DNA of 64,000 nt, taken from positions 124,001 to 188,000 of the forward strand of contig NZ_JACNMQ010000004.1 of NCBI RefSeq assembly GCF_020622265.1. The letters run 5' to 3'. Shown here in pieces: positions 37,670 to 41,540 of this stretch. The first letter of the stretch is position 1, and every line of letters starts with the position of its first letter. The notes below the pieces were generated by a model. The model ran no database searches and had not been told where the DNA came from. It saw nothing but the letters and a program-made list of their open reading frames with translations. This stretch comes from Halomonas sp. M20. Its GTDB lineage: Bacteria; Pseudomonadota; Gammaproteobacteria; Pseudomonadales; Halomonadaceae. A program made the position numbers and the translations under genes.

Positions 37670-37689
37670 TACTGTTTATTTTTACAGTA
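37670..37689 (+). promoter_or_regulatory. LexA (SOS) box upstream of umuDC
   Basis: TACTGTTTATTTTTACAGTA fits the gammaproteobacterial LexA consensus CTGT-N8-ACAG with extended flanks and is a near-perfect palindrome. It lies 33 bp before the umuD start, positioned to block its promoter. The upstream reductase gene ends 58 bp earlier, so umuDC has its own regulated promoter. Confidence 0.9.
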
Positions 37690-37721
37690 TCAATTTGCCG
37701 ACACTTTCCCCTGGAGATTAC

Positions 37722-38159
37722 ATGTCCATCTGCCACTTTGCCTCCACGACCTCTAGAGATAGAAGTTCCTTTAGCGTTGGAGAGCGACGCGGTGCCAGTG
37801 GCTTTCCCTCCCCAGCGGATGACTACCTAGAAGCGCCGCTGGATCTCAACCAGTACCTGATCCCCCGTCCGGCTTCGACCTTTTTCATGCGGGTATCAGG
37901 GAGCACCTTGAACAATGACGGCTTTCATGACGGCGACTTGCTGATCGTTGATCGCTCTCAAAAGGCCATGCCAGGCCAATGGCTGGTGGCCGTCGTCAAT
38001 GGCGAACTGGCCTTGTACCGGCTGGAAAGCCAAGGCGCGCGCTGGTGGCTGCGCGGCGGCGACTCACGCCAGGCATGCTTACCCCTGGAAGGCAACGATG
38101 ACTGCCGCCTATGGGGGCTGGTTTGCCATGTCATTCACGACTGTCGCAGACCGGGCTGA
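37722..38159 (+). CDS. umuD: UmuD-like protein with apparently lost cleavage site and catalytic dyad
   Basis: UmuD subunit of DNA polymerase V, 145 residues, start ATG at 37722 with a GGAG RBS. In E. coli, UmuD self-cleaves at Cys24-Gly25 using Ser60 and Lys97. The alignment is clear (GFPSPADDY then [20 protein letters not shown], and HDGDLLIVD as in E. coli), but three key positions differ: the cleavage bond is Ser26-Gly27, the catalytic Ser position is Thr62 (SGSTLNNDG where E. coli has SGDSMIDGG), and the Lys position is Tyr99 (NGELALYRL for DGEFTVKKL). The fold-forming C-terminus is otherwise normal. It is followed 2 bp later by umuC and controlled by a LexA box. It is read as probably unable to cleave itself; alternatively a trans-acting protease processes it. 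Confidence 0.88.
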
Positions 38160-38161
38160 GC

Positions 38162-39424
38162 ATGTACGTCCTTATCGATTGCAACAACTTCTTCGTCAGC
38201 TGCGAGCGCTTGTTCGATCCCGCCCTGGAAGGTGTTCCGGTGGGGGTATTGTCGAACAACGACGGTTGCGTGATTGCGCGCTCCGAGGAACTCAAGGCGC
38301 TTGGCGTCGCCATGGGAATGCCCGCCCACAAGATTCCTGTTGCCCAGCGCCAGAAGCTGGTACTCAAATCATCCAATTATGCACTCTATGGCGATCTTTC
38401 GGGACGCGTGCAGCGTGTGCTGGCCCAACGCGTACCCGCCCTGGAACCCTACTCCATCGACGAGTGCTTTCTCGATCTTCGTGGCATGAACGGCGATCTC
38501 GAGAAACTGGGATGTGACCTGGTAAGACGGGTGGAACGCGAAGTGGGGCTGCCCGTCTCGCTGGGTATCGCCCCGACTCGCACCCTGGCCAAGCTGGCCA
38601 ATCATCAGGCCAAACGCATGCCTAGCCGGCCCCAGGTATGCATCTGGCCGGATGCAGCGGACTCGGCGCTGGATCAGCATCTGCGCCAGCTGCCGGTCAA
38701 GGAAGTGTGGGGCATCGGCGCGCGGCTTGCGCTGCAACTCAGCGATCTGAAAATCGACACTGCCGCCGATCTGCGCGACGCGCCCGAATCCTGGCTGCGC
38801 AAGCGTTTCAGCGTGGTGGTGGCGCGCACGGCGCGGGAGTTAAAGGGAACAGCGTGCATGGAAGCCCAGGATCTGGAGTCTCCGCGCCGCAGCATCCTGT
38901 GTTCGCGCTCCTTCGGCCGTCTACTGAACGATCCCGAGCAACTCGGAGAGGCATTGCGTCATCATTGCCAGCGCGCCGGCGAAAAGCTGCGCCGGGACGA
39001 CATGCTTGCAGGCGCCGTGGGCGTCTTCTTGCGCACCAGCCAGCATAATCCTGGGCCACAACAGCAGCATCCACTATGGACGACATTGCCATTCCCGAGT
39101 GCCGACACGGTGCGACTCAATCGTCAGGCCCAACTGCTGCTGCAAAGGCTCTGGCGACCCGGATATGCCTATCAGAAAATGGGCGTCATGCTCGGTGAAT
39201 TGAGTCCGCGGCGCCATAGTCAGCCGTCTCTGCTCGATGGCTGCGAACCAGGACGTCAGGAAGCCCTGATGCAAGCCTGGGACGCCATTCGTCAGCGCTA
39301 CGGGCGCGAGGCATTGACCCTAGGCGTACAACAGCGACAGAGCGCATGGCGCATGAACAGCCGCCACCGCTCCGCGTCCTACACTACCCGGTGGGACGAA
39401 CTACCCAACGTACGCTCAGGCTGA
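38162..39424 (+). CDS. umuC: DNA polymerase V catalytic subunit
   Basis: Y-family translesion DNA polymerase, 420 residues (E. coli 422). The start at 38162 ([20 protein letters not shown]) puts the first metal-ligand Asp at residue 6; an in-frame upstream Met at 38111 overlaps umuD and is unlikely. The second catalytic motif [10 protein letters not shown] and the [18 protein letters not shown] segment are intact, then the thumb and little-finger region. The C-terminal Gln/Arg-rich tail is as in UmuC. Two bases separate it from the umuD stop, so translation is coupled. It appears fully functional, in contrast to its UmuD partner. Confidence 0.94.
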
Positions 39425-39453: not shown

Positions 39454-40011
39454 CTATTCCCGGTCGAAGGGAGACGGCGCCTCCTTGAACTCCGCATACA
39501 GTTGAGGGTAGGCCTCTTGTAGCTGCAAGAGACTCGACTCCGCACCGTCGGGAAGCATCTTGAGCAGGCGCTGTTGATCCTCATCGGTCAGATGCTCACG
39601 GAAGAGTGGAAATAGCTGTTCGCGCTCGGCGCGCAGATAGGTACGATGCGCATCCAGATAGGCCTTGAGATCGTCGGCAAAGCGATCCATGGGCACGACG
39701 GCGTCCATCAGGATCATGTCGATGTTATCGGATAGCTGCTTGAGACGTTCGTGCAGCGCCTGATAATCCGTAGCCAGGCGGCCGCTCAGTTCGTCGGCTT
39801 CGGGCACCTTGGCCAGCAGATGCTCACTGTAGAGCCGCTCCAGGGGTATGGTGAAGGTATTCATATAGTCGAGAATGTAGTCCACGACTTCCCGCACCAG
39901 TTGGAAATCGGGACGCTTACCATGGGCCAGCGTTCTGTGCTTGAGGGCCAGTACATGAAGCAATCGCGCCATGTTGGCATGATCGCGTCGCAACTGAGTC
40001 AGCATGGGCAT
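39454..40011 (-). CDS. Hemerythrin-fold protein lacking key iron ligands
   Basis: A 185-residue all-helical protein whose pattern matches the bacterial hemerythrin domain (LRRDHANMARLLHVLALKHR at the N-terminus, FADDLKAYLDAHRTYLRAER followed by EQLFPLF near the middle). His11 is in the usual place, but the His-His-Pro pair of the second helix reads Thr54-Ile55-Pro56 with Glu58 kept, and the usual His four residues before the Glu of the E-x-E/L-F-P segment is Tyr125. His87 (LHERL) remains. So the di-iron site would lack at least two histidines. Function is unknown; it could be a regulatory or stress-associated protein. It is transcribed towards umuC and is divergent from rarA. Confidence 0.78.
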   Translation of the reverse strand: MPMLTQLRRDHANMARLLHVLALKHRTLAHGKRPDFQLVREVVDYILDYMNTFTIPLERLYSEHLLAKVPEADELSGRLATDYQALHERLKQLSDNIDMILMDAVVPMDRFADDLKAYLDAHRTYLRAEREQLFPLFREHLTDEDQQRLLKMLPDGAESSLLQLQEAYPQLYAEFKEAPSPFDRE

Positions 40012-40202: not shown

Positions 40203-41540
40203 ATGGATCTGTTCAGTCAACATGCCCAGAGCGACAGCGCTCCCCTGGCCTTTCGCATGCGCCCCCGCAGCCTCGAGGATTACACGGGGCAACAGGCGCT
40301 GGTCGGCCCCGACAAACCCTTGCGCCGCATGGCCGAAAGCGGCGTATTGCGCTCGATGATTCTGTGGGGCCCCCCAGGCGTGGGCAAGACCACCCTGGCG
40401 GAGATTCTGGCCGAGGCCTCCGGGGCTCAGCTGGAGCACCTCTCTGCCGTCATGGCAGGGGTCAAGGAGATCCGCGCCGCCGTGGAGCGCGCCCGGGCCG
40501 CCCAGAGCCAGCAACGCCCCACGGTGTTGTTTCTCGATGAAATTCACCGTCTCAACAAGAGCCAGCAGGACGCCTTGCTGCCACACGTGGAATCCGGCTT
40601 GCTGACGCTGATCGGGGCCACCACGGAAAACCCTTCTTTCGAAGTCAACTCTGCCCTGCTGTCCCGGGCTCGGGTCTATGTACTCAAGAAACTCGATGAC
40701 GACGAACTTCGCCAAGTGCTGCGCCATGCCTTGGACGATGAGGAAAACGGACTTGGCAAGCGCCGCATCCAGGCCGATGAAGAGGTGCTGGCTACCCTTT
40801 CCCGGGCCAGCGGTGGCGATGCAAGGCGCGCCCTTGGTCTATTGGAAACCGCTTGCGACTTCACTAAGGTCGAGAACGGCAAAGAGTACCTCACCAACGA
40901 CGCCCTCGAAGAGGTGATCGGGTATCAGGCCAGCGCTTTCGACAAGCAGGGCGATCACTATTACGATCTGCTCTCGGCAATCCACAAATCGATCCGTTCC
41001 TCCCGACCAGATGCGGCACTGCTGTACATGGCGCAGTTCATGCAAGGCGGTGGCGACCCGCTGGATGTGGTGCGACGCTTGACGGCCATCGCTTCCGAGG
41101 ATGTGGGCAATGCCGAACCTCGCGCCCTGCCCCTGGTCATCGCCGCCTGGGACGCCTATCTGCGCCTGGGGGATTACGAGGGCCAGCGGGCCATCGCCCA
41201 CGCAGCCATTCATCTGGCGGTCGCCCCTAAGAGCAATGCCATCGAACGCGCCTGGCAGGGAGCCAAGAAATTCGCCAAGGAACATCCAGACCTGGAAGTG
41301 CCTGTCTATCTGCGTAATGCGCCGACCAAGTTGATGGCCTCCCTGGGCCATGGCGAGGGCTACCGCTACGCCCACAAGGAACCCGAGGGCTATCCGGCGG
41401 GCAGCGCTCACGATTGCTGGCCGGAGGGATTAGCCAAGACCCGCTTCTTCGATCCCAGCGAACACGGCCAGGAAAAGCGTTTCAAGCAGATGCAGGAATA
41501 CCGCGCGCAACTGGACGAGCAAGCCGACAAGCACTCCTGA
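40203..41540 (+). CDS. rarA: Replication-associated recombination ATPase RarA (MgsA)
   Basis: AAA+ clamp-loader-like ATPase that acts at stalled replication forks and binds SSB. Walker [10 protein letters not shown] at residues 56-64, Walker [19 protein letters not shown], sensor [20 protein letters not shown] and the C-terminal tetramerisation region with [18 protein letters not shown] are all in place; 445 residues, like E. coli RarA (447). It lies just downstream of the promoter region shared with the hemerythrin-fold gene. In Pseudomonas it sits between lolA and serS; here a phospholipase D-like gene is between rarA and lolA, and lolA runs the other way. Confidence 0.95.

Follow-up and report, generated by a model that had tools for sequence, protein, structure and literature searches.

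The UmuD protein encoded in the window (the whole stretch of 64,000 nucleotides of DNA analysed here) is a member of a clade, spread over six genera, that lacks the Ser-Lys dyad with which UmuD cuts itself. We consider it most probable, at roughly 0.6, that this protein is a natural, never-cleaved, UmuD'-like subunit, the uncut protein working as UmuD' in a DNA polymerase V (Pol V) that would be controlled mainly by LexA. The 'cut to activate' step is probably unused in these salt-loving genera. We give about even odds to a more far-reaching version, a protease-free Pol V in which full-length, uncut UmuD works with its 13-residue arm near the active site, the proteolytic gate having been deleted in evolution here and split instead in some cyanobacteria. 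UmuD cleavage is taught as a timer that delays error-prone repair; a clade without cleavage but with polymerase and SOS box would provide a natural test of the timer's purpose, those at issue being mutation rate, timing and the release of UmuC from the membrane.

The locus has the layout of an SOS-regulated umuDC operon. A LexA (SOS) box, TACTGTTTATTTTTACAGTA, lies on the forward strand at positions 37670–37689, with 0 mismatches, and ends 32 bases 5' of the umuD start codon; 100 shuffles of the window yielded no match with one mismatch or fewer. The umuD gene (37722–38159, forward strand; 145 aa), assigned by its Pfam S24 domain and alignment to E. coli UmuD/UmuD', is separated by two bases from an intact umuC (38162–39424, forward strand; 420 aa), the product of which has IMS, IMS_C and DUF4113 domains, D6, the SIDE motif at residues 98–101 and a QPSLL stretch that, judged by eye, we take to be a clamp-like motif. 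A hemerythrin-domain gene on the opposite strand (39454–40011) is conserved beside the dyad-less umuDC, in 25 of the 26 loci with the window counted, and the forward-strand AAA+ gene beyond it (40203–41540), presumably RarA-like, is a neighbour in six of the seven named long loci, spanning three genera. The LexA-box core is found with at most one mismatch upstream of every one of the 26 dyad-less umuDs, 16 times in perfect form, against a background in which 3.75% of random window stretches reach this level. The earlier note had described the box as perfect and UmuC as intact, both of which hold, and its proposal that the operon is still SOS-regulated appears, from the conserved box, to apply across the clade.

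Following a phmmer search against the solved E. coli UmuD/UmuD' proteins (best E-value 3.6e-20), the window segment S-G-S-T-L was found to lie on S-G-D-S-M of E. coli and A-L-Y-R-L on T-V-K-K-L. Thr62 (codon ACC, 37905–37907) therefore occupies the position of the nucleophile Ser60, and Tyr99 (codon TAC, 38016–38018) that of the general base Lys97. These two replacements, as well as Ser26-Gly27 at the cut site, are residue for residue those from which the earlier note concluded that the protein seems unable to cleave itself. The conclusion is strongly supported at the level of sequence, and a shifted Ser/Lys pair, the possibility that would have undone it, is not visible by eye in an alignment of the 26 orthologues. 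The Pfam S24 score is 55.8 bits (cut-off 23.3), and both sequence and structure searches return UmuD/UmuD' as the best PDB matches, the top Foldseek match being UmuD' 1umu (TM 0.79 by target). The AlphaFold (AF2) model keeps the UmuD' fold, with pLDDT values of 91–94 for the ten-residue blocks from 51 to 110, and has a low-confidence arm (pLDDT mostly <50 up to residue 24). By homology, S24/LexA-type fold and position, adjoining umuC and behind a LexA box, the protein is UmuD by descent; the features expected of an autoproteolytic UmuD, a Ser nucleophile, a Lys base, the cut consensus and the P-L arm motif, are missing from its sequence. It narrowly misses the NCBIfam model PRK10276, 'autoproteolytic subunit' (109.6 bits versus a cut-off of 110), and relatives that pass may be misnamed, as the cut-off lies only 0.4 bits above the score of the window UmuD.

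The same UmuD is present in 7 of the 14 genomes of the genus searched. Among 275 genomes of the family, dyad-less orthologues were found in at least 26, from six genera; the 30 best-scoring places were read, 26 of them dyad-less and four from another group, and 26 is a minimum, lower-scoring places having been covered by sampling only. No two of the 26 sequences are identical. Three of the six genera can be named by inference, through named loci that have identical match values: Modicisalibacter ilicicola and Halomonas sp. PR-M31 from the window's genus, Chromohalobacter israelensis, C. sarecensis and C. canadensis from a second, and Halomonas salipaludis and Halomonas sp. ML-15 from a third. 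The homologue alignment suggested in the earlier note shows that replacement of the Ser/Lys pair is conserved across the clade: the nucleophile column holds Thr, His, Gly, Ala or Asp, with Ser in only two sequences (L049 and L055, both without Lys), and the Lys column holds Tyr, Gln, Arg or Leu throughout, so that neither a Lys nor a complete dyad occurs. Both Ser and Lys are present in 76 of 76 other UmuDs of the family, a control made up of 60 family UmuDs (listed, better-scoring matches) and 16 UmuD loci of the dyad-less genomes, about half of the latter being genes already read earlier. Residue comparisons were made against a further set of 124 UmuDs (111 distinct, some species over-represented), from which duplicate copies and four loci without a complete dyad (L069, L100, L119 and L146) had been left out beforehand; because the set was chosen as dyad-bearing, finding both Ser and Lys in 124/124 carries no weight of its own as evidence. 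The clade looks chromosomal, as the matches listed in a search of plasmids and phages are all below 60% identity. The literature searched, which covered few subscription papers, yielded no description of a UmuD clade naturally devoid of the dyad.

The clade has lost more than the dyad. When compared with the 124 dyad-bearing UmuDs, S60, M61, I66, T95, K97, N111, Y114, P116 and I117 (E. coli numbers) are lost and P39, W87, R129 and L130 (window numbers) are gained, and several of the lost residues belong to the structural catalytic core tabulated for UmuD (PMC12984324). On the substrate side, the P-L arm motif at −9/−8 is found in none of the 26 versus 76/124, making it common but not universal in dyad-bearing UmuDs. 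A Pro followed by a hydrophobic residue anywhere from −16 to −5 occurs in 3/26 versus 113/124, and Leu at −8 in one dyad-less sequence (L016). The cut consensus [VIL]x[ACST]|G is likewise absent from the clade and present in 113/124 dyad-bearing UmuDs; P3 is Gly or Ser in 26/26, versus [VIL] in 100/124. Positions −4 to −1 read R, G/S, A, S, with P1 Ser, P2 Ala and the Gly-Phe-Pro-Ser-Pro side of the former cut invariant. Ser-Gly at the cut site was read correctly in the earlier note, but is not itself a loss, as Ser precedes the cut-site Gly in 24/124 dyad-bearing UmuDs as well (in most of these the actual cut may instead fall at an Ala-Gly three residues upstream); the loss in this region concerns the hydrophobic P3 residue and the arm motif. 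With dyad, cleft residues, arm motif and cut signal all absent, the features of both enzyme and substrate in autoproteolysis are gone.

The N-terminal arm itself remains (codons 1–26, 37722–37799, forward strand), lacking the P-L docking motif and ranging from 12 to 27 residues in length across the clade. Codons 1–22 are variable, while the alignment of orthologues reveals a near-invariant block around the former cut site at codons 23–35 (R23–Y35; 37788–37826, forward strand). This block carries zero nonsynonymous differences within six of six genus groups, as compared with a pN of 0.08–0.15 in three dyad-bearing groups, a contrast that is indicative only because the controls are few and two of them are more diverged than most test groups. 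An internal translation start yielding a ready-made UmuD' is unlikely as a general solution: in 23 of the 26 umuDs, the codons from −12 to +11 relative to the former cut include no in-frame ATG, GTG or TTG. One or two such codons occur in L018, L047 and L052, the ATG at −12 in L047 being its chosen umuD start, and CTG occurs in others.

We propose that an arm without the docking motif would be unable to fold back on the globular domain, that the R23–Y35 segment would insert into the UmuC cleft, and that the variable 22-residue tail would be tolerated as an extension. In that case, transcription under LexA control, together with RecA binding to UmuC, would switch Pol V without a proteolytic delay. 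Retained are the LexA box, the UmuD' fold and the segment corresponding to the N-terminus of UmuD'. From E. coli UmuD/UmuD' of DNA polymerase V, with which it shares the S24 fold, the umuD-umuC operon, the LexA box and the GFPSPAxDY segment, the clade differs in being without the Ser-Lys dyad, cut consensus and arm-docking motif, and is presumably never cleaved. An engineered precedent exists in the E. coli variant UmuD3A (T14A L17A F18A), a full-length protein that cannot be cleaved and is regarded as mimicking UmuD', since its arms associate weakly with the globular domain (PMC5342242). By number, L17 lies eight residues before Gly25, i.e. at the −8 position of the P-L motif absent in the clade. 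Arm docking is lost in both cases; UmuD3A, however, carries three engineered arm changes only, while the loss in the clade is natural, clade-wide and extends to the catalytic cleft. In an AlphaFold-based model of Pol V, one UmuD' arm is inserted near the UmuC active site (PMC11791011, PMC12926913). Such an insertion would explain the invariant arm block, which in turn bears on the model. As a counterpoint, E. coli UmuD(K97A), which stays uncleaved, retains UmuC at the membrane and is a strong inhibitor of mutagenesis (PMC4552617), and UmuD 18, a non-cleavable form with a truncated arm, yields only low mutagenesis in E. coli (PMC5342242); in that organism, therefore, an uncleaved arm is costly. 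For the clade, we infer an absence of cleavage in the cell, UmuD'-like activity and arm insertion.

The main rival is cutting in trans, by LexA, an orphan LexA-like protein or another protease. In its S24 form, the dyad-less UmuD would be substrate only, and LexA, the orphan LexA-like S24 protein or a dyad-bearing UmuD would cut it after damage to give a normal UmuD'; we regard this as unlikely, though it deserves to be taken seriously. Candidate enzymes are at hand. A direct search found a dyad-bearing UmuD in 14 of the 26 dyad-less genomes, and LexA and the orphan LexA-like protein, both dyad-bearing, occur in the window's own genome and in 12/12 of the genomes where no other UmuD was found. 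The invariance of P1 Ser, P2 Ala and the Gly-Phe-Pro-Ser-Pro side also favours a retained cut, the invariant R-x-A-S before it may be recognised by another protease, and some cyanobacteria appear to have evolved just such a split (see below). Against this, the [VIL]x[ACST]G consensus and the docking-linked arm motif are gone from the clade, while in the window's genome VAAG is retained in both LexA and the orphan LexA-like protein, and VRAG in the second UmuD. Nor was any other UmuD found in 12 of the 26 genomes, one of them a single-contig genome. The suggestion in the earlier note that a second UmuD might do the cutting thus remains viable in the window strain, where the search it called for located one dyad-bearing copy, but neither cutting by a second UmuD nor acting on a second Pol V can be the general function. 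A second UmuD had been suggested for 22/26 genomes by more than one match in each, a figure that the direct search reduced to the above 14.

The S24-family matches in the 12 genomes consist of LexA (12/12), the orphan LexA-like protein (12/12), the dyad-less UmuD and repressor-like proteins, the latter in G014, G021, G025, G027 and G145; two weak matches were left out of this reading (L351 of G014, and one on G027:C318 at 34 bits). The orphan protein (L002 at C8:504555 in the window's genome; L036–L039 and L329–L340) has a VAAG or VSAG site together with Ser and Lys, and no DNA-binding domain is apparent in it by eye.

A tree of 128 UmuCs places the partners of the dyad-less UmuD in one clade with an SH-aLRT support of 100 (20 of the 26 were used, as six of ten near-identical g5 rows were dropped). 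The dyad-less clade thus has a single origin on the UmuC tree. Its sister group, with a support of 85 only, comprises five loci, including one from Oceanospirillum; four carry the dyad and the fifth is L069 (genome G156), the UmuD of which has Ser replaced by Ala and Lys kept. The UmuC partners differ from their family relatives at 24 diagnostic positions, and the dyad-less umuD is directly beside its own umuC in 26/26 loci, with a gap of −13 to 18 bases. Within six genus groups, dN/dS is 0.09–0.24 for the dyad-less UmuD and 0.07–0.15 for its UmuC partner. Three dyad-bearing groups give 0.07–0.17 for UmuD, and at silent sites some pairs are near saturation. Both umuD and umuC are under purifying selection in the groups tested. 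Many residues of the catalytic cleft have drifted, as would be expected of a pseudogene; we consider decay or sequence error to be barely conceivable in view of 26 distinct intact frames, purifying selection, the invariant block, the conserved LexA box and synteny.

In E. coli, UmuD2C is thought to act as a checkpoint that slows replication. The earlier note had raised the possibility of a built-in brake, whereby an uncleavable UmuD2 would permanently bar UmuC from translesion synthesis and the complex would only slow replication. The restraint that non-cleavable UmuD exerts on UmuC in E. coli speaks for this, but the state of the polymerase does not: UmuC is intact in all 26 loci, with D6 and the D/E of SIDE kept, and no other intact UmuC was found in the 12 genomes in which a further UmuD was not found either (G145 also contains a broken umuC fragment), yet this UmuC is constrained at the dN/dS values given above. 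Moreover, the clade has lost just those residues of the arm without which E. coli UmuD becomes UmuD'-like. We therefore do not favour the brake, which seems improbable. Neither it nor the reading of the protein as a substrate for a second UmuD is the best fit, whereas the underlying observation is real and clade-wide.

Less probable again is that the dyad-less UmuD serves mainly as a heterodimer partner that modulates a second, dyad-bearing UmuD/UmuD'. The two proteins co-occur in the 14 genomes mentioned, and in the window's genome the second umuD, on contig C12 with a LexA box of its own, is intact while its umuC is in two pieces 41.4 kb apart. Such a role is hard to reconcile with the 12 genomes in which a second UmuD was not found, and with the invariable position of the dyad-less gene right beside its own umuC. 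The island that splits the second umuC lies outside the window (C12:120262–161651, L010–L012) and contains ORFs that we take, from their motifs, to resemble metal-transport ATPases, a MerR-like regulator and thiol-disulfide proteins, with three presumably recombinase-like ORFs at one end. G009 has a split at the same point with the same gap size, and in G036 the gap is 32 kb.

Partly similar systems exist elsewhere. HumD, of the phage P1 type, is used in the manner of UmuD' without an activating cut and has no arm. The window UmuD differs in keeping the arm, scores 72.3 bits against the HumD model NF051876 (equivalog cut-off 120), and the match starts at residue 27. The C-terminal domain of the phage 186 CI repressor also has a LexA fold without the canonical catalytic core (PMC12984324), although it belongs to a phage repressor and not to a polymerase subunit.

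A closer comparison is offered by cyanobacteria. The family to which a Cyanobium MAG belongs was searched in 151 genomes, 128 of which had a match. A reading of the 30 best places showed Ala/Arg at the Ser/Lys positions in 23 and the dyad in seven. Two further genomes have Ala/Arg via other loci, bringing the total to 25. As in the clade, the dyad is lost in a conserved group, but most of these dead UmuDs retain a V-x-A|G-type cut site, often with an LPLA-like arm, and they are usually not beside umuC: only L271 has a umuC start motif in the 900 bases downstream, with a dyad-bearing UmuD'-like partner lying between. They also differ in co-occurring with a dyad-bearing UmuD' that has no cut site. 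A UmuD-like protein that is shorter, has both Ser and Lys and lacks the GFPS segment was read in 21 of the 25 genomes, with a umuC start motif close downstream; the other four have a single match at the threshold. This suggests a division of labour, one UmuD serving as substrate only and one UmuD' as enzyme only, with cutting in trans, and such pairs (among loci L259–L296 and L297–L316) would provide a natural system for its study. A umuD duplication has been described in Cyanobium gracile (PMC5101192). On the tree, the dead UmuDs of Halomonads and of cyanobacteria do not group together (two changes); in an AU test a single clade of dead UmuDs is not rejected and is slightly likelier (p 0.52 with and 0.53 without the dyad columns), so that an independent origin, based on taxonomy and residues, is a guess. 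A third cyanobacterial UmuD-like type (L303, L304, L306, L307 and L313) has Gly/Arg at the dyad positions; it lacks the GFPS segment, and the 300 bases downstream of it contain no umuC motif.
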